A stretch of DNA of 64,000 nt from an uncultured Actinomycetes bacterium (lineage in GTDB: Bacteria > Actinomycetota > Acidimicrobiia > Acidimicrobiales > Ilumatobacteraceae), in the NCBI GenBank assembly GCA_903872155.1, contig CAIQJP010000008.1:1-64000 (forward strand), given 5' to 3'. Under the pieces are notes generated by a model. It ran no database searches and was not told the origin of the DNA. It saw only the letters and a program-made list of their open reading frames with translations. A program made the translations under genes and the position numbers. Positions 23,415 through 59,372 of this stretch are shown one piece after another. Each line of letters starts with the position of its first letter. Position 1 is the first letter of the stretch.

Positions 23415-24629
23415 ATGGCTGAATTTTCAATGCACCTCAATGACGATCAATTGCAGATCAAAGACTGGATTCATCAGTTCGCGGTTGAGCACATTCGCCC
23501 ACACGCGCAAGAGTGGGACGACCGCGAAGAATTCCCGTGGCCCGTGGTGCAAGAAGCCGCAAAAATTGGTTTGTATGGTTTCGAATTTTTGATGAACGCG
23601 ATGACCGATACCACCGGTCTCACCATGCCTGTCGCAATCGAAGAAATCTTCTGGGGCGACGCTGGTATTGGTATGGCCATCATGGGTTCTGGTTTGGCTG
23701 CTGCAGGAATTAGCGGCAACGGAACTCCCGAACAAGTGATGGAATGGGTTCCGCAGTGTTACGGCACCGCCGATGACATCAAGTTGGGCGCATTTTGTGT
23801 GAGCGAACCCGACGCTGGATCAGATGTGTCATCGCTTCGTACGCGCGCTGTTTACGACGAAGCTAAAGACGAATGGGTGATCAACGGAACTAAGGCATGG
23901 ATCACCAATGGTGGCATTGCCAATGTGCACGTGGTTGTCGCTGCAGTTGATCCCGCACTCAAAGGTCGTGGTCAGGCTTCGTTCATTGTTCCTCCGGGCA
24001 CCAAGGGCTTGTCACAGGGTCAGAAATATCAGAAGCACGGCATCAAGGCTTCGCACACCGCCGAAGTAGTACTTGATGATGTTCGTATACCTGGCAGTTG
24101 CTTGTTGGGTGGAAAAGAAAAGCTTGATGCCAAGCTCGCGCGATACCGCGAAGGTGGAGCATCAAGTGGCAAGCAGCCCGCAATGGCAACCTTTGAAGCA
24201 ACTCGTCCATCAGTGGGTGCGCAGGCTTTGGGTATTGCTCGCGGTGCTTATGAAATTGCTCTTGATTACGCAAAAGAGCGCGTTGCCTTCGGCAAGCCGA
24301 TCATCATGAACCAAGCGATTGCCTTCAAGTTGGCCAACATGGCGACACAAATTGAAGCTTCGCGTTTGCTCATTTGGCGCGCTGCCTGGATGGCTCGTAA
24401 TGGAGGCTTCAAGAATGCCGAAGGTTCGATGAGCAAGTACTACGCCTCAGAGACCGCAGTGCGCGTCACCGAAGAAGCAATTCAGATTCTTGGTGGCTAC
24501 GGCTACACCCGCGAATACCACGTTGAGCGCATGCACCGCGACGCCAAGATTCACACCATCTTTGAGGGCACTTCTGAGATTCAGCAGCTGGTGATTGCCC
24601 GCGCAATCTCTGGCCTGCGAATTGAGTAA
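23415..24629 (+). CDS. Acyl-CoA dehydrogenase (classical single-subunit type)
   Basis: 404 residues with the complete fold: GAFCVSEPDAGSDVSSLRTRA, INGTKAWITNGGIAN, GVxA-type GIKASHTAEVVLDDVRIPG, RVAFGKPI, and QILGGYGYTREYHVERMHRD followed by the catalytic-base segment IFEGTSEIQ. FAD-dependent alpha,beta-dehydrogenation of an acyl-CoA is expected. The last 20 codons plus stop recur, with only third-position changes, at 25838-25900 beyond the next gene. This implies that the DNA after this gene was inserted or exchanged. Confidence 0.93.
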   Translation: MAEFSMHLNDDQLQIKDWIHQFAVEHIRPHAQEWDDREEFPWPVVQEAAKIGLYGFEFLMNAMTDTTGLTMPVAIEEIFWGDAGIGMAIMGSGLAAAGISGNGTPEQVMEWVPQCYGTADDIKLGAFCVSEPDAGSDVSSLRTRAVYDEAKDEWVINGTKAWITNGGIANVHVVVAAVDPALKGRGQASFIVPPGTKGLSQGQKYQKHGIKASHTAEVVLDDVRIPGSCLLGGKEKLDAKLARYREGGASSGKQPAMATFEATRPSVGAQALGIARGAYEIALDYAKERVAFGKPIIMNQAIAFKLANMATQIEASRLLIWRAAWMARNGGFKNAEGSMSKYYASETAVRVTEEAIQILGGYGYTREYHVERMHRDAKIHTIFEGTSEIQQLVIARAISGLRIE

Positions 24630-24631
24630 TT
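24565..24631 (+). repeat. Direct repeat, left copy (3' end of acyl-CoA dehydrogenase)
   Basis: 67 bp repeated at 25836-25902 with about nine mismatches inside the coding part, all at third codon positions. The two copies bracket the FAD monooxygenase gene. Confidence 0.85.
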
Positions 24632-24642
24632 GCTACGAGACG

Positions 24643-24648
24643 TAGCCT
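24643..24648 (+). promoter_or_regulatory. -10 box for leaderless FAD monooxygenase gene
   Basis: TAGCCT lies 7 nt before ATG 24656, just past the left direct repeat. Confidence 0.4.
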
Positions 24649-24655
24649 CTCTACT

Positions 24656-25837
24656 ATGAAGATTGCAATCATTGGCGGGGGAATTGGCGGTCTTGCGACC
24701 GCTCTTGCACTCTCTCAAAGTTCTCATGAAATCACTGTCTTTGAACGTTCGGCAGGAATCAGAGAAATTGGTGCTGGCGTGCAAATCAGCCCGAATGCTT
24801 CTCGTCTTTTGCATTCGTTAGGTCTTGGCCAAGCATTTTCAGAAATTGCGGTGCATCCGCATCGAGTTGTATTTCGCCGTTGGGAAGATGACTCCATTCT
24901 TCGTATGGCAGACATTGACGACAGTTTCGTGGCGCAGCATCAGCTGCCGTTAGCAAATGTTGCACGGAATGATTTGGTTGAAATTCTTGGAAATGCGGTG
25001 GCGCAGCAGACAAATGTAACATTGAAATTCTCGACGTATGTTGTGGGTGCGGAGCCAGGTGAATCATCATCGGCGGTTCGATTTTCCGATGGAACAAGCC
25101 AGTCCTTTGACATCGTCATTGGTGCTGATGGAATTCATTCGGTGATTCGGCCGTGCGTTGGTGGTCTAGATAAACCCCGGTTCAGTGGCTCTGCTGCGTA
25201 TCGTGCATTGGTCCCACGCAAGTTCGTGGAAGATCTACCAATTGATGTCACTAACCGCATGGGTCCAGATCGCCATGTGGTGAGTTATTTCATTGGACGT
25301 AATCGCAGTCATCTCAACTTGGTTTGTATCTCACCTGAAGATTCGTGGGAAACCGAATCATGGACTGAGCAAGGAACAGTAGAAGATTTGTATGCACGAT
25401 TTGAAGGTTGGTCACCTGAGCTTCTCTCACTGCTAGCCCGGGTCGAAGAACCAGTTTTCCGCTGGGCGTTATACGACCGTGAACCATTGGATCAATGGGG
25501 AATAGGCACGACAACATTGCTCGGTGATGCTTGCCATCCGATGCTTCCTTTTATGGCTCAAGGATCATGCCAAGCAATTGAAGATGCAGTTGTGTTGGCA
25601 CGTTGTCTATCTGATGAGAGCATTAGCGATGCTGCGCTTGCCCTTCGTCGATATGAAAATGCACGTCAAGGTCGCACAGCTCAAGTGCAAACCTCATCGT
25701 TGATGAATCGTGATCTGTTCCACATGCTGGATGGTCAAGAACAAAAAGATCGGGATATGTTTTTTTCGCTGACGCCACCAGGAATGTCAATTCTTGATTG
25801 GGTCTTCGAATACGACGCACTTACTGTTGCCATTTAG
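24656..25837 (+). CDS. FAD-dependent monooxygenase (salicylate-hydroxylase-like)
   Basis: 393 residues of the group A flavoprotein hydroxylase fold: IAIIGGGIGGLATALAL (GxGxxG), the DG motif DIVIGADGIHSVIR, and the second FAD motif TTLLGDACHPMLPFMAQG. Such enzymes hydroxylate aromatic or similar rings using NAD(P)H and oxygen. The gene lies exactly between two copies of the upstream acyl-CoA dehydrogenase 3' end; its stop (TAG at 25835-25837) abuts the right copy. It thus appears to be an acquired gene. Its codon use is slightly more A/T-rich than that of the neighbours (impression, not calculated). Confidence 0.88.
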   Translation: MKIAIIGGGIGGLATALALSQSSHEITVFERSAGIREIGAGVQISPNASRLLHSLGLGQAFSEIAVHPHRVVFRRWEDDSILRMADIDDSFVAQHQLPLANVARNDLVEILGNAVAQQTNVTLKFSTYVVGAEPGESSSAVRFSDGTSQSFDIVIGADGIHSVIRPCVGGLDKPRFSGSAAYRALVPRKFVEDLPIDVTNRMGPDRHVVSYFIGRNRSHLNLVCISPEDSWETESWTEQGTVEDLYARFEGWSPELLSLLARVEEPVFRWALYDREPLDQWGIGTTTLLGDACHPMLPFMAQGSCQAIEDAVVLARCLSDESISDAALALRRYENARQGRTAQVQTSSLMNRDLFHMLDGQEQKDRDMFFSLTPPGMSILDWVFEYDALTVAI

Positions 25838-25900
25838 GGCACCTCAGAGATCCAGCAGCTGGTTATTGCGCGTGCGATCTCCGGCCTTCGAATTGAGTAA
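25838..25900 (+). pseudogene. Displaced 3' end of an acyl-CoA dehydrogenase gene
   Basis: Encodes GTSEIQQLVIARAISGLRIE and a stop, identical in protein sequence to the end of the gene at 23415-24629 but with nine synonymous differences. It has no start and no upstream part. It is the remnant of an acyl-CoA dehydrogenase gene whose body is now separated by the FAD monooxygenase, or was replaced by the copy upstream. Confidence 0.85.
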
Positions 25901-25924
25901 TTCGTAGGCCATTTTTAGCAAATT

Positions 25925-25941
25925 CAGTTGAGTGTCAACTG
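25925..25941. promoter_or_regulatory. Palindrome upstream of malic enzyme
   Basis: CAGTTGA-GTG-TCAACTG, perfect 7-bp arms, 36 nt before the malic enzyme ATG. It could be a regulator site for that gene or a small terminator for the upstream unit; there is no T-run after it. Confidence 0.4.
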
Positions 25942-25977
25942 ACAACTGGGTGCTAAGTCCGTAGCATAAGAGGTCTT

Positions 25978-27384
25978 ATGTCTACTCTCCCTAACGCCGC
26001 ATTTTCTATCTCTCTCGATTGTCAGCTTGACAACGTGCCAGGCACCCTTGGACGGTTGTGCGCCGCCATTGGTGAAGCAGGCGGAAACATCGGCGCTCTT
26101 GATGGTTTTGACGTTCGCGGTCCGGTTCTTCGTCGCAGTCTTGTCGTGCACTGTCGAAACGAAGAGCATCAACAAACAATTGTTGCTGCAGTGCAAAAAC
26201 TCGATGGTGTCACTGTTCTTGATTGGTGGGACCGAACTTTCCGCATGCATGAGGCTGGCAAGGTTGAAGTTCTGAGTACTGCGCCAGTGAATGATCGTGA
26301 TGATTTGTCAATGGCCTATACGCCAGGCGTCGCTCGCGTCTGTACTGCGATTGAAAATGATCCATCGCTCTCCCATAAGTACACCATTCGCAAAAACACC
26401 GTTGCCATTGTGAGCAACGGAACTGCGGTGCTCGGACTTGGCGACATCGGTCCAGAGGGCGCAATGCCCGTTATGGAGGGCAAGGCCCTGTTGTTTAAAG
26501 AGTTTGGTGGGGTGAACGGTTTCCCGATCTGTATCAATGCTCGCACCGCCGATGAAGTTGTTGATTTTGTGCAACGTATTGCTCCAACATTTGGTGGAAT
26601 CAATCTCGAAGACATCAAAGCACCTGAGTGTTTTGAAATTGAAGAGCGCCTGCGTGCGAGTCTTGACATTCCTGTCTTCCACGACGATCAGCACGGCACG
26701 GCAGTTGTCACCTTGGCGGCTTTGTGGAACTCATTGAAAATCACTGGCAAGAAGATGGAAGACCTCACGGTTGTCATCGCCGGAGTTGGAGCTGCTGGTG
26801 TTGCTATCGGCAAGATTTTGCTCAACGCTGGTATCGGTGATGTCATTGGTTGCGATCGAGTAGGCGCCATTTACACCGGTCGAGGTGAAATGAACTCGGC
26901 AAAAGAATGGTTTGCTGCAAATACAAATTCGTCACGAAAGATGGGAACCATCAGTGACGTCATGAAAGGCGCAGACGTGTTTGTCGGAGTCAGTGGGCCC
27001 GATCTCATCACTGCTGCCGATGTGCGCTCGATGGCGAAGAACCCCATTGTGTTTGCCATGGCCAACCCGAACCCAGAAATACGTCCAGAGCAGGTTGATG
27101 GTCTTGCTGCTGTCATGGCTACGGGACGCAGCGACTATCCGAACCAAATCAACAACGTGCTGGCATTCCCCGGCATCTTCCGTGGTGCACTTGACGCAAA
27201 TGCAACGGACATCACCGAAGGCATGAAATTGGCCGCGGCCATTGCCATTGCCGAGTCGGTGTCTGACGCCGAGCTTTCACCAGAATTTGTGGTTCCTTCA
27301 GTGTTTAACCGGACCATTGTTGAGCGTGTTGCGCCGGCGGTTGCTGCAGCTGCAGTGAAAGACGGCGTTATCCGCAAGTCGTAG
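25978..27384 (+). CDS. NAD(P)-dependent malic enzyme with N-terminal ACT domain
   Basis: 468 residues. Residues about 8-80 form an ACT-type regulatory domain (LDNVPGTLGRLCAAIGEAGGNI). The catalytic part has the proton-donor tyrosine in SMAYTPGVARVC, lysine in MEGKALLFKEFGG, metal ligands in LEDIKAPECF and HDDQHGTAVV, and the nucleotide-binding loop AGVGAAGVAIGK. It decarboxylates malate to pyruvate. ACT-fused malic enzymes are usually allosterically controlled by an amino acid or similar ligand. Its last 24 codons recur as a fragment at 30540-30614. Confidence 0.93.
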   Translation: MSTLPNAAFSISLDCQLDNVPGTLGRLCAAIGEAGGNIGALDGFDVRGPVLRRSLVVHCRNEEHQQTIVAAVQKLDGVTVLDWWDRTFRMHEAGKVEVLSTAPVNDRDDLSMAYTPGVARVCTAIENDPSLSHKYTIRKNTVAIVSNGTAVLGLGDIGPEGAMPVMEGKALLFKEFGGVNGFPICINARTADEVVDFVQRIAPTFGGINLEDIKAPECFEIEERLRASLDIPVFHDDQHGTAVVTLAALWNSLKITGKKMEDLTVVIAGVGAAGVAIGKILLNAGIGDVIGCDRVGAIYTGRGEMNSAKEWFAANTNSSRKMGTISDVMKGADVFVGVSGPDLITAADVRSMAKNPIVFAMANPNPEIRPEQVDGLAAVMATGRSDYPNQINNVLAFPGIFRGALDANATDITEGMKLAAAIAIAESVSDAELSPEFVVPSVFNRTIVERVAPAVAAAAVKDGVIRKS

Positions 27385-27468
27385 AACGTGTTTTGTCTGA
27401 GCGATCTCAGGCCGAAGCATCAAGTAATTCTTCATTGAGGTTTGGATATCTGCTCTCAACCGATCGGG

Positions 27469-27474
27469 TAGATT
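27469..27474 (+). promoter_or_regulatory. -10 box for leaderless 56-residue ORF
   Basis: TAGATT lies 6 nt before GTG 27481, the same geometry as at many other starts in the window. Confidence 0.45.
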
Positions 27475-27480
27475 TTTTGC

Positions 27481-27651
27481 GTGACTGAGATATCGCCGAT
27501 TGATGAGATGTATCTAGAAGGTCTTGAGATGAAGCGGGCGCAAATACGTCGTGGAGATCCCACCCTTGACGACGAGACTGTCGAGAAATTACTCAGAGAG
27601 TGGATCATGGACCGCCCAATGGATGCTCCAGGTCGAGTCAGGTTCGTGTGA
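27481..27651 (+). CDS. Small protein (56 residues), copy 1
   Basis: GTG start with leaderless-type promoter; the protein contains MYLEGLEMKRAQIRRG, DPTLDDETVEKLLREW and IMDRPMDAPGR. It is charged, helical and soluble. I do not recognise a named family; short actinobacterial proteins with a similar KRAxxRRxxP...LLxxWxxxRP layout exist, some near toxin-antitoxin genes. That it is real is shown by a second copy at 30342-30495 which is about 90% identical in DNA and differs almost only at synonymous sites. Its stop is separated by one base from the convergent surface-protein gene. Confidence 0.7.
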   Translation: MTEISPIDEMYLEGLEMKRAQIRRGDPTLDDETVEKLLREWIMDRPMDAPGRVRFV

Positions 27652-27652
27652 G

Positions 27653-30244
27653 TCAGACTGACTTGAATAATCCTCGTCGCCGCATCAACACGCCGCCGAT
27701 GAGCAATAGCAACGCCACCACAAGCAGACGGTCCTGGTCATTTGAACCAGTCGCCGGAAGCTTGGGCTGGGACACCGTGATCGGTTGCGAGAATCCGACT
27801 CCGCTCACGGGTGCGTACACCGCCAACGTGTGATTACCAGATCGCAAAGTGGCCGGTAAATTTCCACTGATAGTCACGACACCTTGGGCGTTGGCATAAC
27901 CAGAACCGATCACTTGCGGAGTTGAGGCAATGATCAATTGCACATACTCGAAAGGCGTAAAGCCGCCAAACGTCACTGTCACTTCTTCGCCAGTCGCCAA
28001 TGAATTGTCAGGAACGAGTGGCGTCTCGGCCCGTGGCAAACCTGTGACAACTGATTCAGATGGTGGTGCAACCGTGGTCGAAGTAGTGGTCGAAGTAGTT
28101 GTCGATGTGTTGTTTGGAAGTGTTGTCGCTGTTGAGCCCGACTGTGGCGCAGTTGTTGTGGTCGCGCTTGGCACAGAACTTTCTGTCGGTGCTTCTGTGG
28201 TGGGCGCTTCAGTGTTTTCGGTACTTGGTGTTGTTGTTGTTTGTGGTTCTGAGATTGTGAACGAGTGCATGACTTCATTTGCGTCTGCGAACAAAGAGTT
28301 ACCAGCCACGTTCGCAGTCAACGTGCAGGTCCCCACTGTCAGCATCGATACCTCAAGCCCCGCCACGGTACAAACATCTAGCGTTGTTGATGTCAGTACC
28401 ACAGAGAGGTTTGAATTAGACGTAGCAGTCACCATGAACGGTGTCGACGAGAGCTCGCGATCAACTGGGCCAGTCAACGAAATGATTTGGGCTGCAAGAG
28501 GTCTGACTACTGTCGATACCGGTGACGATGCCGTAGTGGTTGACCCTTTTGTTGCAGTTGTCGTGAAGGTATAGGCGGTTCCAGCTGTTAAGCCGGCAAC
28601 AACACACGAAGTTTCTGGAAACACAATTGTGCAAGTTATGTCACCCGGTGACGATTTCACTAGGTATGAAGTAGGAAGTCCACCGGTGCCGCGTTGCGCA
28701 GTGACACGAACGCTTTGGGCTAAAGCTAATCCTGATGGTGCGCGTGGTGTGGTGATAGCTGGACTCCACGCGGCTTGGGTGTAGCCAAGATATGTCGCGG
28801 ATAATGCAGGCCAACCGTTGGTGCCTTCAATGCGATGGATGATTGCTCCAGTGGGCAGACCTAAATCGACGTCTTCGGGCGGAGAGTCGCCCTCAAAGTA
28901 AATATCAAAGGGAGTGCCGGCGGGATTCTGGTTCTGGCCGAACGGTTGGTAACCCCAGGTGTTCACCGTGTGCGGCACCACAATATTCGTGATCTTTGTG
29001 TAGTACAAAGAATTCTGACCGAGGGTGGTGAGGCCCGACGGCAAATTGATACTTGCCAGATTTGTGGCATAGATAAAAGCGGCGTTTTCGAGGACGGTGA
29101 TTGAATCGGGCAATGTGACTGTCGTGAGTGTCGGTGCACTCTGGAAAGCATCTTCCCCAATCGCGGTGGTTCCCGCAGGAACTGAATATGTTTCACCCGT
29201 TTTCCCTTTGGGGTAGGCAACCAGAGCGCTACCTCTGAATAAGACTCCGTCAATTGTATTGAAGTTGGGGTTACCTACTTCAACGGTGACCGACTCAAGA
29301 TTTGACACCCCCCGTAGTGGATTAGATGCAAAACTCGTGAATGAGAGGGGTAGTGATAGCGAGGTCAGGGCTGTATTTCGGTCAAATGCTTTATCCCCGA
29401 TCGCGGTGGTTCCCGCAGGAACTTGATACGTCGTATCTGTCCTCCCTCGCGGATACAAATTCAGTTCGTTGCCTCTGAATAAGACTCCGTCAACTGCGCT
29501 GAAGGTTGGGTTACCTGCAGTAACAGTAAAGTCTGTTATTGATCCGCCAAATGCATCCTCGCCAATGACTGACACTGCGATCGGAATTTCAATCGTTGAC
29601 AAACCGGGGAGGCTAAAGGCTTGCTGGTCGATGAATTCAAGAGAGGCTGGTAGCGACACGGATGTGACCGGACCCCCGTAGAAGGCACCCATGCGAAGCT
29701 TTTTAACACCACTGGGAACTGTCACTGAAGTTGCCGTGGCACCACCTGGGTAGGCGATGAGTTCGGTGCCATCTTTGGTCATCAAGGTTCCATCCACACT
29801 CTTGAAATCCTGTGACAATGGGTCAACTGAAAATTCAGTAGCTTTCGATCCACCAAATGCATAGCCGGCAATAGCTGTCACCGATGCTGGAATCTGAACT
29901 CCACGGAGGGTGTTATCAAACCAAAAGGAGCTGCCTCCGATCCCGAGCACGGGCTTGCCGTCGACAACGCTCGGAATGACGACTGGATCTGGGCACGCTG
30001 CGGCACAACCCTTTACTTCCCATGATGCATCAGACCCTTGGAAAGGGCCGAATACCAGACCATCACTATCCAACGCTTGGGCCAAACGGGGAGATGCACT
30101 CGAACTGACAATCACCGTTCCCACAATGACAGCGAGAAGGACTGCGCTTCTTCCTGAAAGTCTTTTCTTTGGAGCATTCCCGTTCTTGGCACCGTCGATA
30201 TAAAGATTGACAACCCTCGTTATTTCTGTGGTGTCTTGGCCCAT
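27653..30244 (-). CDS. BspA-like leucine-rich-repeat surface protein with LPXTG anchor
   Basis: 863 residues from ATG 30244. Residues 1-24 duplicate the start of the lumazine-binding-like protein at 30761 (QDTTEITRVVNLYIDGA), so this is a chimera. Next come a hydrophobic signal helix (AVLLAVIVGTVIVSSSA) with a likely cleavage site after LAQA, then about nine BspA-type LRR_5 repeats (IGEDAFxx, DGVLFRGxxLxxYPxGxT). An fn3/Ig-like part and a Thr/Ser/Pro-rich wall-spanning stretch follow. The sorting signal LPATG sits near residue 830, followed by a hydrophobic helix and RRR tail. It should be sortase-anchored and exposed, probably adhesive. No sortase is in the window. An in-frame TTG at 30265 is a less likely start. 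Confidence 0.85.
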   Translation of the reverse strand: MGQDTTEITRVVNLYIDGAKNGNAPKKRLSGRSAVLLAVIVGTVIVSSSASPRLAQALDSDGLVFGPFQGSDASWEVKGCAAACPDPVVIPSVVDGKPVLGIGGSSFWFDNTLRGVQIPASVTAIAGYAFGGSKATEFSVDPLSQDFKSVDGTLMTKDGTELIAYPGGATATSVTVPSGVKKLRMGAFYGGPVTSVSLPASLEFIDQQAFSLPGLSTIEIPIAVSVIGEDAFGGSITDFTVTAGNPTFSAVDGVLFRGNELNLYPRGRTDTTYQVPAGTTAIGDKAFDRNTALTSLSLPLSFTSFASNPLRGVSNLESVTVEVGNPNFNTIDGVLFRGSALVAYPKGKTGETYSVPAGTTAIGEDAFQSAPTLTTVTLPDSITVLENAAFIYATNLASINLPSGLTTLGQNSLYYTKITNIVVPHTVNTWGYQPFGQNQNPAGTPFDIYFEGDSPPEDVDLGLPTGAIIHRIEGTNGWPALSATYLGYTQAAWSPAITTPRAPSGLALAQSVRVTAQRGTGGLPTSYLVKSSPGDITCTIVFPETSCVVAGLTAGTAYTFTTTATKGSTTTASSPVSTVVRPLAAQIISLTGPVDRELSSTPFMVTATSNSNLSVVLTSTTLDVCTVAGLEVSMLTVGTCTLTANVAGNSLFADANEVMHSFTISEPQTTTTPSTENTEAPTTEAPTESSVPSATTTTAPQSGSTATTLPNNTSTTTSTTTSTTVAPPSESVVTGLPRAETPLVPDNSLATGEEVTVTFGGFTPFEYVQLIIASTPQVIGSGYANAQGVVTISGNLPATLRSGNHTLAVYAPVSGVGFSQPITVSQPKLPATGSNDQDRLLVVALLLLIGGVLMRRRGLFKSV

Positions 30245-30341
30245 GGCAAACTCCGAATCGCTCAAAGCGATCCACGGAGATGTGAAGGGCTGAGGCGAAC
30301 CTTAATGACCGCCCTTCAACTAAGCAATGAATTTCAAGGCC
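30188..30341. repeat. Inverted repeat, left arm (154 bp)
   Basis: Reverse complement of 30664-30817 with six mismatches (about 96% identity). It covers the leader, ribosome site and first about 18-20 codons of the surface-protein gene on the minus strand, as the right arm does for the lumazine-binding-like gene. Weaker similarity continues for about 15 bp inward. Confidence 0.92.
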
Positions 30342-30495
30342 AATCGACGAGATGTATCTCGAAGGTCTTGAGATGAAACGCGCGCAAATACGTCGCGGGG
30401 ATCCCACCCTTGATGACGAGACCGTAGAGAAATTACTCAGAGAGTGGATCATGGACCGCCCAATGGATGCCCCCGGTCGAATCAGGTCTGTGTGA
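30342..30495 (+). pseudogene. Second copy of the 56-residue ORF, 5' end truncated
   Basis: About 90% identical to 27498-27651, with 16 differences that are nearly all synonymous (V to I and F to S near the end are the exceptions). Homology begins exactly at the inverted-repeat boundary. The first five codons and the promoter are missing, and an in-frame stop lies just upstream. It could still be translated from ATG 30352 (47 residues). Confidence 0.7.
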
Positions 30496-30539
30496 GTCTT
30501 CTTTCTGCGGCATCGAAGTTTATGTCTCGCGCAAATTCA

Positions 30540-30614
30540 AGGACAATCGTTGAACGTGTTGCGCCGGCGGTTGCTGCAGCGGCAGTGAAAGAGGGCGTTA
30601 TCCGCAAGTCGTAG
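30540..30614 (+). pseudogene. Displaced 3' end of a malic enzyme gene
   Basis: In-frame fragment encoding RTIVERVAPAVAAAAVKEGV and IRKS plus a stop. It matches the last 24 codons of the malic enzyme at 25978-27384 with six differences, five synonymous and one Asp-to-Glu. No start or body is present. The rest of 30496-30663 holds nothing I recognise. Confidence 0.85.
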
Positions 30615-30663
30615 TACGCGTATGCCCTGTTGGTGCGGGGTTATTGCTGTTTAATTGCAGGAT

Positions 30664-30817
30664 GGCCTAGAAATTCATTGCTTAGTTGATGGGCTGTCAT
30701 TAAGGTTCGCCTCAGCCCTTCACATCTCCGTGGATCGCTTTGAGCGATTCGGAGTTTGCCATGAGCCAAGACACCACAGAAATAACAAGGGTTGTCAATC
30801 TTTATATCGACGGAGCC
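30664..30817. repeat. Inverted repeat, right arm (154 bp)
   Basis: The presumed original copy: leader plus first 19 codons of the lumazine-binding-like gene. It contains a small inner palindrome, ATCGCT-TTG-AGCGAT (30734-30748), directly before the ribosome site. The reverse-complement copy lies at 30188-30341. Confidence 0.92.
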
Positions 30818-31129
30818 GGAAACGGAAACGCCGACCAATTAAATGAGGCCTTTCACAAAAGCGCCCGTTGGTTTGGTGCAATGGATGGCGTTGATTACGA
30901 CATGGACAAAGAAGGCTTTGTTGCATTTATGGTTGAGTCGCCTGGCCACCCAACGGCTGCAAAAATAGTTGACATCCAGATTGCTGGTACGGCTGCGACA
31001 GCGACAGTGACAGAAGACGGATTTTGGGGAACACTTTCGTTTACGAATTTCTTCCAGTTGTCAATTCTTGAGGGACACTGGCAGATCACAAGCAAGACTT
31101 TTGCCCATACCGGTGGACAGCACGCTTAG
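30761..31129 (+). CDS. NTF2-fold lumazine-binding-like protein (SnoaL superfamily)
   Basis: 122 residues from ATG 30761, with GGAG 6 nt upstream; a TTG at 30740 is in frame but less likely. The sequence ITRVVNLYIDGAGNGNADQLNEAF, FHKSARWFGAMDG, AATATVTEDGFWGTLSFTNF and FFQLSILEGHWQITSKTF follows the PF12893 (Lumazine_bd_2) pattern of small cone-shaped NTF2-like proteins. Function is unknown. Its leader and first codons were the source of the N-terminus of the surface protein at 27653-30244. Confidence 0.8.
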   Translation: MSQDTTEITRVVNLYIDGAGNGNADQLNEAFHKSARWFGAMDGVDYDMDKEGFVAFMVESPGHPTAAKIVDIQIAGTAATATVTEDGFWGTLSFTNFFQLSILEGHWQITSKTFAHTGGQHA

Positions 31130-31157
31130 TTGCCGACAGATACTTTTCGACTAGTTC

Positions 31158-32372
31158 TTACGCTTTAGCGCGAGTGCGTCGAAGAAGTGGATCAGCAATT
31201 CGTAACGCGTTGTCGGCAAGTCGCATGACTTTGCCGGCAGCACCAGGAGTCGTTGAATCAATCAAATTACCCATCACGGCAAGCGTGATGTCGGCCGCTG
31301 ATTGAGTTCCGACGGCGACGCGCAAACCTGGGCGTAATAACCACGGGTGACCGATGATGAAACTGAATCGTCGGCCAGTGCGTAAGAACGCATCGAAGCG
31401 TTCACCTACTTGAGTGTCGTATGACCTTGGTGCAGTTACAGGATTATCGATAAAGCATTTGACGGCAAGAGTGCCCGACTCAAGCGCGTAATCGATGCCC
31501 TCACCATTCATCGGATTCACAAAACCAGCAGCATCGCCAACTGCAACCCAACCTGGCCCGTGGCGACGTATGCAACTCATTGGCAGACGCCACGCACGTG
31601 GCTTCTCAACATAATCACCCAACGACCAAGGTTCTCGAACAATTGATGCGTATTGATCAAGCAAGGTATTGAGATTGAGTTTCTTGAAACCCTTCATGGT
31701 GCTCAGTGCACCAACACCAATATTGACGGTGCCATCACCCGCCGGAAACATCCAGCCATATCCAGGAACCGGAGTCCCGTGTTCATCACGCAAACTTAAA
31801 CACGCTTCGAGATGACGTTCGGCATGACGAGGAGTCGGCGCGTAAGCACGGATGGCTAATCCAAAAGTTTCATTGGGGTCACGAACAGCTCCGAGCATTT
31901 TTGCCGCTGCACCTTGTGCGCCAGTTGCCAAGACAACAAGTGACGAGCGCAATATTTCGCCGTTGACTTCAACGCCGACAACGACACCGTCTTCAAGAAC
32001 GGGTAGTGCTTCGCTATTGAAACGAACATCAGCACCAGCCTCGATTGCGACATCAAGCAGATGATTATCAAATTTTTGTCGAGGCCAAACTGCACCATGA
32101 TTTGGGAAGCGATCGGTCGTTGGCCACGAAAGCTCGCGTTGCTTCTTGCCAGCAATCATGCGTAGGCCATCAATGCGATGGGCAACTGAATGATCAATGT
32201 TTAAATCATTGAGTGCCGCAATAGCCCGCGGCGTTAAACCATCGCCACATACTTTGTCGCGGCCGTAAGGACCTTTTTCGCATAACACCACACGAAGTCC
32301 GGCGCGTGCAGCTGATATTGCGGCCGATGAACCTCCGGGTCCACCTCCGATAATTGCGATGTCAAACTGCAT
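31158..32372 (-). CDS. Geranylgeranyl-reductase-family FAD oxidoreductase
   Basis: 404 residues: FDIAIIGGGPGGSSAAISAA at the N-terminus, the family hallmark KVCGDGLTPRAI, AVWPRQKFDNHLL, and WVAVGDAAGFVNPMNGEGI, the second FAD motif with the substrate pocket. Members reduce isoprenoid double bonds of lipid or quinone side chains (for example menaquinone). It stands alone between unlike genes, so its substrate cannot be deduced. Confidence 0.9.
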   Translation of the reverse strand: MQFDIAIIGGGPGGSSAAISAARAGLRVVLCEKGPYGRDKVCGDGLTPRAIAALNDLNIDHSVAHRIDGLRMIAGKKQRELSWPTTDRFPNHGAVWPRQKFDNHLLDVAIEAGADVRFNSEALPVLEDGVVVGVEVNGEILRSSLVVLATGAQGAAAKMLGAVRDPNETFGLAIRAYAPTPRHAERHLEACLSLRDEHGTPVPGYGWMFPAGDGTVNIGVGALSTMKGFKKLNLNTLLDQYASIVREPWSLGDYVEKPRAWRLPMSCIRRHGPGWVAVGDAAGFVNPMNGEGIDYALESGTLAVKCFIDNPVTAPRSYDTQVGERFDAFLRTGRRFSFIIGHPWLLRPGLRVAVGTQSAADITLAVMGNLIDSTTPGAAGKVMRLADNALRIADPLLRRTRAKA

Positions 32373-32483
32373 ACCTTGAGCCTGTCACGCCTACTTTGGC
32401 GATGCCAACATTGGCGCTCGGTATCAACCAATAGAAGTTGAATGTCACATACACCGTGCCTGAGTCGGCGAACTCCGCGAGTT

Positions 32484-33062
32484 TCATACGTGAATTGAGG
32501 TAACTGCGGTTCGTGACACTTGATGGATAAACGCATTGATGTCGTCAATACCTTCAAGTTTCAACTCAAGCGGGCCATCAAGTAGCAACGTCGCCAGACC
32601 ATGGCCAACAGACCACATGTATGCAGTCTGTGTCTTCACAATTTCGTCACTGGCACCTTCTCCGAGCAGCGACTTCACCTCATCAACAAGAATGTCAAAG
32701 GCACGATCGGCTTCCATTCGAGCGCTTGGATAGTCGGCAAGTTGACATAAGTCGTTGCGCATCATCACTCGAAAATGCCCAGGGTGTTGTAATGCAAAAT
32801 GCACATACGACTCGCACATATTTGAGTCATTCGAGGGACGGGGAGCGAGCAAAGCTTCAGACAGTTGGCGGAAACCTTCCTCGCAGATCGCGGCAAATAT
32901 TCCCGAGCGGTCGGTGAAGTGGTGGTAGGGGGCTTGGTGCGAAACGCCAGCTTCGCGGGCGACTTCACGCATTGAAATGGCGTCGGGGCCATTGGCTGCC
33001 GAGATTGCGACAGCGGCATCAAGCACCGTTCGTCGCAGGGACTCTGATTTCAATGAGGACAT
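32484..33062 (-). CDS. TetR-family repressor, divergent from MFS exporter
   Basis: 192 residues. The helix-turn-helix is AVAISAANGPDAISMREVAREAGVSHQAPYHHFTDRSGIFAAICEEGF at residues about 17-65. The C-terminal ligand domain is variable. It shares a 41-bp divergent region with the exporter gene that contains a long inverted repeat, so it most likely represses both itself and the exporter until a toxic ligand binds. Confidence 0.9.
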   Translation of the reverse strand: MSSLKSESLRRTVLDAAVAISAANGPDAISMREVAREAGVSHQAPYHHFTDRSGIFAAICEEGFRQLSEALLAPRPSNDSNMCESYVHFALQHPGHFRVMMRNDLCQLADYPSARMEADRAFDILVDEVKSLLGEGASDEIVKTQTAYMWSVGHGLATLLLDGPLELKLEGIDDINAFIHQVSRTAVTSIHV

Positions 33063-33065
33063 AAC

Positions 33066-33101
33066 TTGACATTATCTAGTTTTTCTACTAGACAGTGTCA
33101 A
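33066..33101. promoter_or_regulatory. TetR operator and overlapping divergent promoters
   Basis: Arms TTGACATTATCTAG (33066-33079) and CTAGACAGTGTCAA (33088-33101) match at 12 of 14 positions around an 8-bp centre. TTGACA doubles as a consensus -35 for the exporter, with TAGACA (33089-33094) 17 bp on. On the minus strand TAATGT (33069-33074) is a -10 box placed 6 nt before the repressor ATG. Binding would shut both promoters. Confidence 0.75.
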
Positions 33102-33103
33102 GT

Positions 33104-34636
33104 ATGAATATTCACCCTAACCCGGTCGTGCAAAAACGCCGTTGGCTCATCTTGCCGGTGCTCTGCATCAGTTTGTTTATGGTCGTCGTCGACAACCTCA
33201 TCATCAACGTGGCTTTGCCCACTTTGTCGCGTGAACTTGGGGCCTCGACGAGTGGTTTGCAGTGGATTGTTGACTCGTACTCATTGGTCTTTGCTTGTTT
33301 GCTGTTGGCATTTGGAGCCTTGGGTGATCGGCTCGGTCGTAAAGGTGTCATGCAGTTCGGAATGGTTGCCTTTGTGGCGTGTTCAGTGTGGGCGTCATTC
33401 GCGCAGTCGACATCAAGCCTGATCATTGCGCGTGGAGCGATGGGTGTTGGTGCAGCGGCGATCTTCCCCGCAACCCTTGCCATCGTGATTGACATTTTCC
33501 GCGATCCCATTGAGCGAGCGAAAGCGATTGGTGTGTGGTCGGCGGTCTCGGGTGTTGCGGTTGCATTCGGACCAATCACTGGCGGAGTTTTACTCGAACA
33601 CTTTTATTGGGGCTCGGTCTTTTTCGTGAACTTGCCCGTCGGCATCATCGCATTAACCCTTGGTGCACTCTTGATTCCTTCATCGAAAGATCCGAACCCA
33701 CGCGCCATTGACATGAAGGGTTTCATCCTTTCGATTGCAATGGTCGGGCTGTTGGTCTTCACCGTCATTGAGGCGCCGCACCAGGGTTGGATGAGTGGAC
33801 GCACACTCCTTTCATTCGTTGCAACTGCAGCACTGTTCGCCATCTTCATTAGGTGTGAATTGAAGGCGGATGAGCCGTTGCTTGATGTTCGCGTCTTTCG
33901 TAACGCGCGTATTTCAGCCGCAACTGGATCAATTGGCGCAGCTTTCTTTGTTCTTTTTGGATTTACGTTCTTGGTTACTCAGTATTTCCAATTTGTACGC
34001 GGTTACAGCACACTCTCTTCGGGGCTACACACGTTGCCGTTTGCATTTGGAGCCGGAATTACTTCGCCAATTGCCGCCCGCCTTGCTTTGAAATTCGGAA
34101 CCAAACGTGTTGTGGCACACGGATTGCTGAACATGTCAATTGGCCTGGTGATCATTGGTTTCAGCGGTGCCGATGTTCCATATTGGGGTCCAGTTGTGAT
34201 CGGCATGTTGTTCTTGGCAACTGGCCTTGGTCTGGTGACTTCGCCATCGACTGACGCGGTTATGGGATCATTGCCAGCCGAGCGTGCTGGCGTTGGCTCA
34301 GCAATTAATGACGTGAGTCGAGAAGTGGGTGGAACGCTTGGAGTTGCCATCAGTGGTTCGGTTTTCGCATCGCTGTATGGACCCAAACTCGGTGAGCTCA
34401 TCGCGAATTTCGGGATGCCAGATGAAGCTGTGGCGGTTGCCAAAGAATCGGCAGGCGCTGGTTTCACAGTTGCTGAAATGGCGCCAACTCCCGAAGCCAC
34501 AGAAGCTGTACGTCAAGCAGTCAGCGAAGCATTTATGCACGGTTTTCACGCGGCAGTATTTGTGGGCGCCGGAGTTGCATTTGTTGGTTCGTTGTGCGCG
34601 TGGAAATTTTTGCCGGCACGCAATCGTTCATCGTGA
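33104..34636 (+). CDS. MFS drug exporter, 14-helix EmrB/QacA (DHA2) type
   Basis: 510 residues from ATG 33104; an upstream GTG at 33095 is in frame but falls inside the -10/operator. About 14 membrane helices. Motif A is LLAFGALGDRLGRKGVM, with DNLIINVALPTL in helix 1 (the D-x3-V-N-V-A-L-P motif of DHA2 proteins) and motif C-like SGVAVAFGPITGGVLLEHFYW. Proton-driven export of a toxic compound is expected, controlled by the divergent TetR protein. Confidence 0.9.
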   Translation: MNIHPNPVVQKRRWLILPVLCISLFMVVVDNLIINVALPTLSRELGASTSGLQWIVDSYSLVFACLLLAFGALGDRLGRKGVMQFGMVAFVACSVWASFAQSTSSLIIARGAMGVGAAAIFPATLAIVIDIFRDPIERAKAIGVWSAVSGVAVAFGPITGGVLLEHFYWGSVFFVNLPVGIIALTLGALLIPSSKDPNPRAIDMKGFILSIAMVGLLVFTVIEAPHQGWMSGRTLLSFVATAALFAIFIRCELKADEPLLDVRVFRNARISAATGSIGAAFFVLFGFTFLVTQYFQFVRGYSTLSSGLHTLPFAFGAGITSPIAARLALKFGTKRVVAHGLLNMSIGLVIIGFSGADVPYWGPVVIGMLFLATGLGLVTSPSTDAVMGSLPAERAGVGSAINDVSREVGGTLGVAISGSVFASLYGPKLGELIANFGMPDEAVAVAKESAGAGFTVAEMAPTPEATEAVRQAVSEAFMHGFHAAVFVGAGVAFVGSLCAWKFLPARNRSS

Positions 34637-34646
34637 GTAGCAGGAA

Positions 34647-35096
34647 CTACTTCCCAAGTGCTTCGAGCAATTTGATGGGTGTATCTTTGGGTGAGATTTT
34701 GTACCAAGCCTCAAGAATGATGCCATTCTGAATCAGGAATGCAGAGCGTTCAATTCCCATGTATTCACGCCCGTACAGCGACTTCTTCTTCCACACCTTG
34801 AATGCTTTGGCCACAACTTTCTCGGTATCTGCCAACAAAGGAAAACCAAGTTCGAACTTGTCATCAAACTTCTTTTGTTTTGCCGAAGTGTCGGGGCTGA
34901 TGCCAACAATTTTTGTACGACCGATTTCTGTGCGAATATCTCGCAGAGCACAACTCTGCTGCGTGCATCCGGGTGTATCTGCCTTTGGATAGAAGTACAC
35001 GAGAATCTTTCCCTTACCTTGTTTGGCCAGAGAGAAAGACTGTCCATTTTGGTCAACAAGATCAATGGCAGGAGCGGGAGAACCAGGCTGAAGCAT
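34647..35096 (-). CDS. Peroxiredoxin, BCP/PrxQ type
   Basis: 149 residues from ATG 35096; the frame is open to 35159 but TATTCT at 35103-35108 gives a leaderless start at 35096. YFYPKADTPGCTQQSCALRD carries the peroxidatic Cys and a resolving Cys five positions on, the atypical two-Cys PrxQ pattern. FPLLADTEKVVAKAF follows. It reduces hydroperoxides using thioredoxin-like donors. It is divergent from the SDR gene. Confidence 0.92.
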   Translation of the reverse strand: MLQPGSPAPAIDLVDQNGQSFSLAKQGKGKILVYFYPKADTPGCTQQSCALRDIRTEIGRTKIVGISPDTSAKQKKFDDKFELGFPLLADTEKVVAKAFKVWKKKSLYGREYMGIERSAFLIQNGIILEAWYKISPKDTPIKLLEALGK

Positions 35097-41192: not shown

Positions 41193-42158
41193 ATGGATTT
41201 AACTGCTGCTCCGCCGCTTGAAGCACCACAAAACGTTGTCGGTCATCATTCAACTTTGTTGGTCGATGAATCACGAAATAGTCGAATGCTTGGCGTCGAA
41301 ATTTGGTACCCGGCGGTATCGGCGACGGTGCAAAGCACTTATGAGCTATTTCCAGGTATTTCATTTTTTGCGGCTTCGGCTCAAGAGAATGCTGCGGTTT
41401 TGGAAGGCACCCATCCGCTCATTATTTGGTCGCACGGACGTACTGGAATGCGACACAATTACAGCTTGCTCTGCGAAGCCTTGGCGGCCCGCGGGTACAT
41501 CGTGATTTCGTCAGATCATCCTGGCGACACCTTGTTTGATTGGGCACTCGGAACACAGGTTGATGACATCACGAATGATCGCCAGCGTTTAGGCGATGTG
41601 CGCTTTCTCATTGATTGCGCACTTGGTGCAGGTCCTGAAATTGCACCGTGGCTTTCTCGGGGTGTCGATCAATCGCGTATCGCAGTTGGTGGACATTCAT
41701 ATGGCGGTCTCACTGCACTAGCAACAGTGTCGTCGCTTCATGAGTTCACCCCGGATGTTCGTGTTCGAGCAGCAGTCATGGCTCAGGGATATACCCGAAT
41801 TCTTCCCGATGAAGTTTTTACGACGACGGCATCACCGGTTTTGATGGTGGTTGCGAATCAAGACGTCACGACACCACCATCGACTGATGCTGAAAAAGCT
41901 TGGGGCTTCCTATCAACTCGAACAGATCGGGTCGGAGAGAAGTCGCAGAGGTTCAATATTGACCATGCCGGACATCAGGCTTCAAGCGATTTTGGTTTAT
42001 ACGCCGAACTCGCACCACAGGTTGAAAATATCCCTGACATGTTGCGTGATTACTTGAAGTCAGTGGTTGATGAATCTCCGCCTGAGTGGATTCACAAGTG
42101 GCGAACCACCGTCTTGCGCCATGTCGTCCTCATCGACGAATTCTTAAACTCCCTGTGA
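41193..42158 (+). CDS. Alpha/beta hydrolase (PAF-acetylhydrolase/dienelactone-hydrolase-like)
   Basis: 321 residues from ATG 41193; the frame extends to a TTG at 41142 without homology support. The nucleophile elbow is AVGGHSYGGLTAL, the oxyanion-region segment PLIIWSHGRTGMRHNY, the acid DVTTPPST after MVVANQ, and the base histidine in NIDHAGHQ. It would hydrolyse an ester or lactone. No signal peptide. Its stop codon abuts the first CTGGTG-family hairpin flanking the next gene. Confidence 0.85.
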   Translation: MDLTAAPPLEAPQNVVGHHSTLLVDESRNSRMLGVEIWYPAVSATVQSTYELFPGISFFAASAQENAAVLEGTHPLIIWSHGRTGMRHNYSLLCEALAARGYIVISSDHPGDTLFDWALGTQVDDITNDRQRLGDVRFLIDCALGAGPEIAPWLSRGVDQSRIAVGGHSYGGLTALATVSSLHEFTPDVRVRAAVMAQGYTRILPDEVFTTTASPVLMVVANQDVTTPPSTDAEKAWGFLSTRTDRVGEKSQRFNIDHAGHQASSDFGLYAELAPQVENIPDMLRDYLKSVVDESPPEWIHKWRTTVLRHVVLIDEFLNSL

Positions 42159-42205
42159 TTCTGGTGTCGTTTTAATCGGTAATAGCGAATTTATTGACAC
42201 CAGTT
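42159..42205. repeat. Hairpin repeat of the CTGGTG/CACCAG family, copy 2
   Basis: Arms CTGGTGTC (42161-42168) and GACACCAG (42196-42203). The 30 bp at 42162-42191 are identical to 43185-43214 (copy 3). It begins right at the hydrolase stop codon. Confidence 0.8.
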
Positions 42206-43171: not shown

Positions 43172-43182
43172 CCAATTGTGTT

Positions 43183-43228
43183 TTTGGTGTCGTTTTAATC
43201 GGTAATAGCGAATTAAACGACACCAGAA
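43183..43228. repeat. Hairpin repeat of the CTGGTG/CACCAG family, copy 3
   Basis: TTGGTGTCGTTT pairs with AAACGACACCAG (one G:U-type change at the tip). The inner 30 bp are identical to copy 2. It lies between convergent genes, 12 nt after the DUF559-type gene and 12 nt before the end of the amidohydrolase gene. Confidence 0.8.
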
Positions 43229-51783: not shown

Positions 51784-51789
51784 GGTTGT

Positions 51790-51840
51790 GATTCTGGTGT
51801 GTAATTGTTGCGAAATACGCAACAATTACACACCAGAATC
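51790..51840. repeat. Hairpin repeat of the CTGGTG/CACCAG family, copy 4 (23-bp perfect stem)
   Basis: 51790-51812 is the exact reverse complement of 51818-51840, with loop AAATA. It lies between the convergent pyrophosphatase and DoxX-like genes, so it probably also ends transcription in both directions. It shares the 20-bp inner part TTGCGAAATACGCAACAATT with copy 6. Confidence 0.9.
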
Positions 51841-58969: not shown

Positions 58970-59372
58970 GCTCGCTCCTTCAACTGGCCACGAACGCTGG
59001 ATGAATGCGCGTGGCGATGTCTCAAGATTGGAAGCAAAAACGGGAAGTCAATAGGGACCAAAGTCCCAGCGTGACCGCCAAGTTACCCTCGGTAAATAAC
59101 TGGGGCTGTCGTTGTGATTCTGGTGCAGAATCTTTGCGAAATACGCAACAATTCTGCACCAGTTTCTGTCGCCGGTTTCGCCACCAGTTTCTGTCGGTCT
59201 GTTGGGACGCTCGTCGCTGGCTCGTGGTTGACTCACTGACGTCGCCCACACACCATTGTTCTCTTTCAAGTCTGGGCCGTGGGCTCAGTCAACGTTCGTC
59301 TCCCACGACCAGCTGCGCATCCCAACTGCACCCAAAACTGAGAACTCGTTGCATCAACTGCTCACTCGCCAA
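58970..59372. other. Noncoding stretch with hairpin and degenerate repeat tips
   Basis: No convincing coding sequence on either strand. It should contain the promoter of the Rieske operon near its left end; no clear box was found. The middle holds hairpin copy 6 and a second tip sequence (CACCAGTTTCTGTCG occurs at 59157-59171 and again at 59182-59196). The right third (59200-59372) is plain sequence in which I see nothing definite. Confidence 0.6.
59116..59163. repeat. Hairpin repeat of the CTGGTG/CACCAG family, copy 6
   Basis: CTGGTGCAGAAT pairs with ATTCTGCACCAG, then TTTGCG/CGCAA continue the stem around the loop AAATA, with one 2-nt mismatch. It shares its inner 20 bp with copy 4. It lies downstream of the DUF222/HNH gene. 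Confidence 0.85.

Follow-up and report, generated by a model that had tools for sequence, protein, structure and literature searches.

A surface-protein gene whose leader and first codons match those of an adjacent NTF2-like gene, in an insertion mosaic behind a malic enzyme gene of an uncultured member of the Ilumatobacteraceae

The DNA considered here is a stretch of 64,000 nucleotides (the window; G000:C8:1-64000) from an uncultured member of the Ilumatobacteraceae. The host assembly, G000, has 2.81 Mb in 165 contigs and is 97% complete, and we infer that the host lives in freshwater. On the reverse strand of the window, a gene that we call S encodes a surface protein, and the start of S, leader and first codons alike, is that of the gene diverging from it, which encodes an NTF2-like protein (our working name; the Pfam name is Lumazine_bd_2). 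We consider it likely, if well short of certain, that S is a derived chimera that lies in an insertion mosaic built by successive homology-facilitated illegitimate recombination. The chimera, its direction, the mosaic, the orphan gene ends within it and the empty sites in relatives are all evident from the sequences. In what follows, c is the leader of the NTF2-like gene and c' its inverted copy at S; A and A' are the 3' end of a malic enzyme gene and its orphan copy; and B and B' are copies of a small antitoxin-like open reading frame (ORF). The features of the chimera itself are:

27653..30244, reverse strand: S, a chimeric gene for a surface protein with BspA-type leucine-rich repeats, an fn3-like part and an LPATG anchor, 863 amino acids from the ATG at 30244 (ORF)
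30173..30244, reverse strand: codons 1-24 of S, derived from the NTF2-like gene (identity at 22 of 24 residues)
30245..30342, reverse strand: c', the copied S leader, 98 nucleotides 5' of the ATG (3 differences from the NTF2-like leader)
30251..30279, reverse strand: hairpin of the S leader, with GGAG in its 3' arm (sequence and folding)
30663..30760, forward strand: c, the NTF2-like leader (98% identity to relative G007 over 30663-30831)
30726..30754, forward strand: hairpin of the NTF2-like leader (sequence and folding)
30761..31129, forward strand: NTF2-like gene (Pfam Lumazine_bd_2 / DUF4440; Pfam and orthologues)

The copy is the only inverted repeat that our repeat search reports in the window (seed 11, minimum length 45). 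Its arms, 30174-30342 and 30663-30831, are 169 nucleotides long and 93% complementary, with 320 nucleotides between them. Compared base by base, 30663-30817 and 30188-30342 differ at 6 of 155 positions, which agrees with the six mismatches given in a preliminary description of this DNA; another 5 mismatches fall in 30818-30831, at the edge where S-specific sequence starts. Within the leaders, the differences are at 30669, 30690 and 30695 (in the numbering of c). From their ATG codons (30761 on the forward strand and 30244 on the reverse strand), the first 24 residues are MSQDTTEITRVVNLYIDGAGNGNA in the NTF2-like protein and MGQDTTEITRVVNLYIDGAKNGNA in S. So both genes are preceded by one and the same leader of 98 bases and agree almost fully in codons 1-24, the last few of which may be S's own; the preliminary description had noticed this shared start. 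It had also noticed that the copy includes a palindrome and a candidate ribosome site, and we find that the palindrome (CTCCG..CGGAG, at 30726-30754 and again at 30251-30279) includes GGAG, a possible ribosome site, and is predicted to fold in both copies as well as in G007. A TTG at 30265 would be the mechanical choice of start for S, but this TTG sits within the hairpin, so the ATG at 30244 is the more likely start. Among the 24 genomes of the genus (the host's own included), the leader is present in two, G000 and G007, and only at the NTF2-like gene or at S; an exact search of viral contigs for a 32-base word of it gave no matches.

Which gene the shared start belongs to can be judged from relatives. 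We searched for S in 61 genomes, many of which are incomplete, and found one orthologue that covers the body of the protein: G005:C371, with 68% identity over residues 30-701. This protein starts with MSKHVVNSNSSHHENAARVKRPAGR and goes on into a signal helix; its start is unlike that of S, and the two can be aligned only from the fusion point onward. The NTF2-like protein has orthologues in G007 (90% identity) and, at 76-79%, in G074, G166, G180 and G187 from two other genera. These keep the N-terminal helix; by eye, the leaders in the other genera are quite different, and the copy in G074 is interrupted by an internal stop and lacks an ATG where the start aligns. The Lumazine_bd_2 match itself begins at residue 11 (numbered from the TTG start), and at E 0.001 there are NTF2-like matches in 13 of the 221 genomes of the family (again counting the host). 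Because S starts differently in G005 and the NTF2-like N-terminus is kept in two other genera without S, the start originates in the NTF2-like gene and was gained by S. By these comparisons the fusion is the derived state, and the direction is from the NTF2-like gene to S, as had been proposed at first. S is one open frame whose parts are homologous to two genes, and both parents occur unfused in relatives (S in G005; the NTF2-like gene in G007, G166, G180, G187 and G074). An N-terminus that both proteins had inherited from an ancestor, which the preliminary description gave as a refuting case, is not what we see, and we rejected it because the G005 orthologue of S lacks it.

The supposition of the preliminary description that the copy is recent is not supported. 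Over the 155 bases of 30663-30817, c and c' differ at 6 positions, c and the G007 leader at 4, and c' and the G007 leader at 6, with four private changes in c', two in c, and two in G007. Since c and c' differ as much as alleles of different species do, the copy appears to be at least as old as the divergence between the NTF2-like genes of G000 and G007, as far as a short stretch can tell. Between these two genomes, the leader and first 19 codons differ at 4 of 155 positions and the remaining gene at 30 of 312 (Fisher p 0.0044); for the leader alone it is 2 of 98 (p 0.016). This stronger conservation suggests that the start region of the NTF2-like gene is important.

Could a protein with such a start be exported? 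S has about 32-33 residues before its signal helix, and its orthologue in G005 has 25, so the earlier view that such an extension is unusual is not supported here. The net charge of this part is +3 over 32 residues in S and +4 over 25 in G005, and given this resemblance export of S is plausible. By hydropathy, the N-terminal hydrophobic stretch is fit for a signal helix. There is no in-frame ATG, GTG or TTG between the fused ATG and the signal helix, so translation from the borrowed start is likely. The frame of S is open throughout, and against G005:C371 dN is 0.247 and dS is 1.343, with dS near saturation. YSIRK signal peptides have long n-regions. Going by the part of PMC5962339 available to us, S is like the YSIRK/GXXS LPXTG proteins in being wall-anchored and in having a long stretch before the signal helix. 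It is unlike them in that, on inspection, it has no YSIRK/GXXS motif and that its extra residues come from a cytoplasmic fold.

The remainder of S looks like a surface protein. Pfam reports LRR_5 at E 9.5e-36, and fn3 under its cut-off. The C-terminus, LPATGSNDQDRLLVVALLLLIGGVLMRRR, has the LPXTG-like motif, hydrophobic stretch and basic tail of a sortase substrate, and the host genome has four sortase matches above cut-off. This end of S is a module of its own:

27674..28177, reverse strand: C-terminal module of S with the LPATG anchor (common to other surface proteins of the genus)

The module (about residues 697-864 of the query) has 55-71% identity to parts of proteins in G023, G002, G007, G004 and G003 and on another contig of the host (G000:C161). 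The G005 orthologue lacks these ~170 residues and has a shorter LPVTG-type end instead. As the module is absent from G005 and common to other surface proteins of the genus, S is apparently a mosaic at both ends, which suggests that anchor modules are exchanged among surface proteins.

S and the NTF2-like gene lie between copies of other sequences. The features of this mosaic, in the order of the forward strand, are:

25833..25902, forward strand: orphan 3' end of an acyl-CoA dehydrogenase gene, behind the FAD monooxygenase gene (a repeat of 24562-24631; also in G004)
25978..27384, forward strand: malic enzyme gene with ACT and malic domains, the proposed anchor (Pfam)
27311..27391, forward strand: A, the 3' end of the intact malic enzyme gene (repeat search)
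27495..27654, forward strand: B, the small antitoxin-like ORF between the malic enzyme gene and the 3' end of S (repeat search)
30339..30514, forward strand: B', a second copy, 5'-truncated, which runs into the first codons of a partner gene (repeat search)
30339..30345, no strand assigned: junction of c' and B', with the 7-base word GATTGGC in the sense of S (by eye)
30541..30621, forward strand: A', the orphan malic enzyme 3' end, which adjoins the NTF2-like upstream region as in G007
31158..32372, reverse strand: FAD-dependent oxidoreductase gene (next to the malic enzyme gene in G004, G006 and G016 and next to S in G005)

Along the forward strand, then, we find the acyl-CoA dehydrogenase gene, the FAD monooxygenase gene, the orphan dehydrogenase 3' end, the malic enzyme gene (ending in A), B, S (reverse), c' (reverse), B', A', c, the NTF2-like gene and the FAD oxidoreductase gene (reverse). 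There are two direct repeats around S, neither of them listed in the preliminary description: 27311-27391 matches 30541-30621 at 91%, and 27495-27654 matches 30339-30498 at 90%. Of the partner gene that follows B', only the first codons are left in the window, and the gene itself is lost. Between B' and A' there are 16-26 bases (30515 to 30530 or 30540) outside both repeats. In G006, B is followed by an AbiEii-like gene (Pfam E 0.0042, below cut-off), and the two lie directly upstream of the malic enzyme gene (L057:694-1497); the end of the same AbiEii-like gene lies upstream of the malic enzyme gene on the G016 contig. As a separate observation, a piece of the end of a dehydrogenase gene stands in front of B in G006.

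Several relatives have empty sites. In G004, G006 and G016 the malic enzyme gene is followed by the oxidoreductase gene about 35 bases on, and in G007 the order is malic enzyme, NTF2-like gene, oxidoreductase. In the window, A' leads into the NTF2-like upstream region just as the malic enzyme gene does in G007, so this orphan 3' end is still joined to the old sequence downstream of it. Behind the intact malic enzyme gene comes a stem similar, by eye, to the stem found there in G004 and G006. The identities of the flanks shift as well. In the 150-base windows that border the insertion, the malic enzyme gene is 97% and the oxidoreductase gene 99% identical to G004 (87% and 89% to G007). Further upstream in the malic enzyme gene, at 26446-26670, the identity is 99-100% to G007 and 93-95% to G004, and in the interior of the oxidoreductase gene (31916-32140) all four relatives are down to 77-79%. 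The malic enzyme gene (26371-27384) is thus itself a mosaic, with a G007-like upstream part and a G004-like 3' end. From these shifts between G004 and G007, the flanks of the locus look recombinant, and the switch along the malic enzyme gene is as expected of a crossover inside it.

Given the direct repeats and the orphan gene ends, we read these features as recombination scars rather than as a system for capturing leaders. Their arrangement has a known counterpart. Homology-facilitated illegitimate recombination is described, in the part of PMC3240628 that we could use, as leaving a conserved anchor gene with new genes behind it and the old 3' end downstream, and in the corresponding part of PMC5361080 it is invoked as a putative explanation of how effector genes were displaced and immunity genes orphaned in Vibrio cholerae. 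Our locus is like those cases, so far as these two partial sources describe them, in having a conserved anchor, inserted DNA, and a displaced old gene or module end downstream (PMC3240628, PMC5361080). It is unlike the V. cholerae cases, as far as the same portion of that article goes (PMC5361080), in that the anchors are metabolic genes, the cargo consists of surface-protein and enzyme genes, and one product has a borrowed start.

We infer the recombination mechanism, as well as expression and export of S from the new start, and the course of events might have been as follows. Incoming DNA would pair with a conserved gene at one end and be joined at little homology at the other end, and this would leave orphan gene ends. 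Inside the mosaic that formed in this way at the malic enzyme 3' end, the upstream region and roughly the first 15 codons of S would have been replaced by the 98-nucleotide leader and the first 19-24 codons of the NTF2-like gene, with an in-frame joint upstream of the signal helix of S. S would then be translated from the same hairpin-bearing start region as the NTF2-like gene, divergently, and the borrowed residues would precede the signal helix on the cytoplasmic side and would presumably be cut off together with the signal peptide. The leader swap was probably a by-product of one-sided gene insertions at this spot.

There are several points against this account. First, one-sided insertion does not account for the inverted orientation of c', which needs a further event. 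Second, A' matches G004 (93% over 74 bases) better than it matches G007 (86% over 81 bases), which does not fit a recipient that was simply G007-like. Third, in G005 S lies directly downstream of the oxidoreductase gene on the same strand, so S may predate the NTF2-like gene at this locus. Fourth, the hairpins of the two copies and of G007 are not unusually stable (z -1.16, -1.74 and -1.71, with 27, 10 and 13 of 200 shuffles equally stable), and a scan of 30140-31200 found no promoter-like sites. (The same scan found one terminator-like site, at 30624-30641; shuffled sequences gave a mean of 1.0.) Rfam gave no match at E up to 1 across 27300-31200, so we rejected a known structured RNA here. 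The remaining points concern how often orphan ends occur and the single assembly in which the fusion was seen, and we take these up below.

For the inverted c', we can imagine two origins: a second allele of the leader might have arrived already fused to S, or c might have been copied in place. The second would be a local inverted duplication, in which template switching or inverted repair copied c and the copy landed in frame in S. Such an event would explain no more than where c' came from and could have taken place within the mosaic, and we regard it as a serious possibility, if a little less probable than its opposite. The copies are just 320 bases apart, and template switching is suited to short spans. 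The joint between c' and B' would suit end joining or template switching because of its 7-base word, GATTGGC, which also appears (by eye) in the B of G006, antisense, and at the upstream edge of the G007 leader. On the other side, c is nearer to the G007 leader (4 differences in 155) than to c' (6 in 155), and c' has two states in common with G007 against c (at 30787 and 30814), but with so few differences neither origin can be preferred.

The near-identity of the inverted arms at two divergent genes might also suggest an invertible switch, which would turn S or the NTF2-like gene on and off by flipping the 320-base middle. We rejected this, and find it very hard to credit, because each 98-base leader lies within its arm, so that flipping the middle alters neither leader. 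Nor is a recombinase apparent among the ORFs of 24000-35000 (by inspection, with four of them searched against Pfam). We likewise rejected the idea that the arms are the terminal inverted repeats of a transposon: no transposase is apparent on inspection of the ORFs, and the arms are parts of two genes.

Orphan gene ends are found elsewhere in these bacteria. In the window itself, there is a second copy of the acyl-CoA dehydrogenase 3' end just after the FAD monooxygenase gene (24562-24631 matches 25833-25902, 70 bases at 86%). The stop codon of the monooxygenase gene is located at the joint with this orphan end. An orphan end of the malic enzyme gene lies behind a GH10 xylanase gene in G013 (L054:3196-4532) and in G022 (L062:2679-4016); the family was assigned by running Pfam on the G013 protein alone, and the xylanase has an LPVTG-type end of its own. 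Past its orphan end, the sequence of G013 matches the empty site of G018, so there too the orphan is contiguous with old downstream sequence. G020 has the xylanase behind the malic enzyme gene, on a contig that stops before any orphan could show, and in G172, from another genus, the orphan is two ORFs downstream. Across the family, a search with the malic enzyme end at E 0.1 gave a match in 108 of the 221 genomes, with a short second match on the same contig in G000, G013, G022 and G172, second matches on other contigs in G117, G180, G182 and G184, and a third match in G022.

How rare are such ends? We scanned for downstream copies of gene 3' ends with genes called by a simple longest-ORF caller. 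In 463,232 bases of G000, there were copies for 3 of 306 genes, of which two are at this locus and one is an apparent tandem pair of paralogues. Among the controls, one 3' end matched upstream and one mid-gene piece matched downstream (the same pair), and 5' ends and three-quarter pieces gave none. In 1,144,831 bases from relatives (loci under 8 kb, 14 of 80, were excluded), there was 1 copy among 716 genes, the dehydrogenase end of G004; the controls gave 4 mid-gene matches and one 26-base 5' match. The orphan dehydrogenase end is counted once in each scan, in two species. So orphan ends appear to be rare in these samples, with those of the scar type confined to this locus. Also, only the malic enzyme end was searched for across the whole family, so its excess is partly due to search bias. 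Both observations count against the account given above, and so does a third: if the last 150 bases of the malic enzyme gene are numbered, the orphan starts in G000, G013 and G022 fall on bases 77, 73 and 69, within 8 bases of one another (at the protein level, the starts are at residues 442 and 441).

Such close starts would also be expected if the malic enzyme 3' end were the attachment site of an integrative element, with S and the B repeats as its cargo or remains. We think this unlikely. By inspection of the ORF list, no integrase is apparent between the repeats; the same type of scar is found at the end of an unrelated gene, the dehydrogenase; and the start of the G172 orphan is shifted upstream by about 40 bases (to query residue 11, as opposed to 24-25).

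The join of c' to S is seen in one assembly, of 165 contigs. An assembler might have joined two strain variants, one with the malic enzyme gene next to S and another with malic enzyme, NTF2-like gene and oxidoreductase. The locus is known from the assembly alone, and the joins are flanked by repeats. Nevertheless, we believe an artefact to be improbable, about as much so as the integrative element or slightly more: the outer flanks on both sides are G004-like, the fusion of c' and S lies within a single open frame, and other assemblies have similar orphan ends. A fold-back chimera is excluded by the arms and repeats, which are 4-10% diverged.

Fusion genes that are born by deletion have been described (PMC12803068, a preprint that we cite for the part available). 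In both situations, on the terms of that part, a rearrangement joins the start of one frame to the end of another (PMC12803068). The deletions there are between genes; in our case, by comparison with the same part of the preprint (PMC12803068), the NTF2-like parent is intact beside S and in the opposite orientation, on the other strand, so we rejected a deletion as the origin of S. Among the papers listed by literature searches, often only a fraction of all those matched, there is no account of this locus, as judged by titles and the starts of abstracts. This locus is a chimeric gene made by rearrangement, with an informative set of intermediates, and not a new system. Elsewhere in the window, there are four 50-base units (42154-42203, 43177-43226, 51787-51836 and 59113-59162) that share the ends TGTG.TT.TGGTG...CACCAG and have differing, palindrome-like middles.

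A broader idea, which we offer tentatively and think more likely wrong than right, is that the region of the acyl-CoA dehydrogenase, malic enzyme and FAD oxidoreductase genes is a standing acceptor site in freshwater acidimicrobia. One-sided uptake of relatives' DNA would repeatedly add surface-protein and enzyme genes there and would swap leaders and anchor modules in the process, which would place surface genes under resident start signals. We suggest that a simple scan could look for one-sided uptake in uncultured bacteria: it would search the few kilobases downstream of a gene for orphan repeats of its final 70-110 bases. Natural cases are useful when close relatives allow both parents, the fusion product, the empty sites and the insertion scars to be aligned. 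Here one can see how the own start of a bacterial surface gene can be lost while the frame stays open with a borrowed one, and the locus is a clear example of the origin of new gene beginnings.

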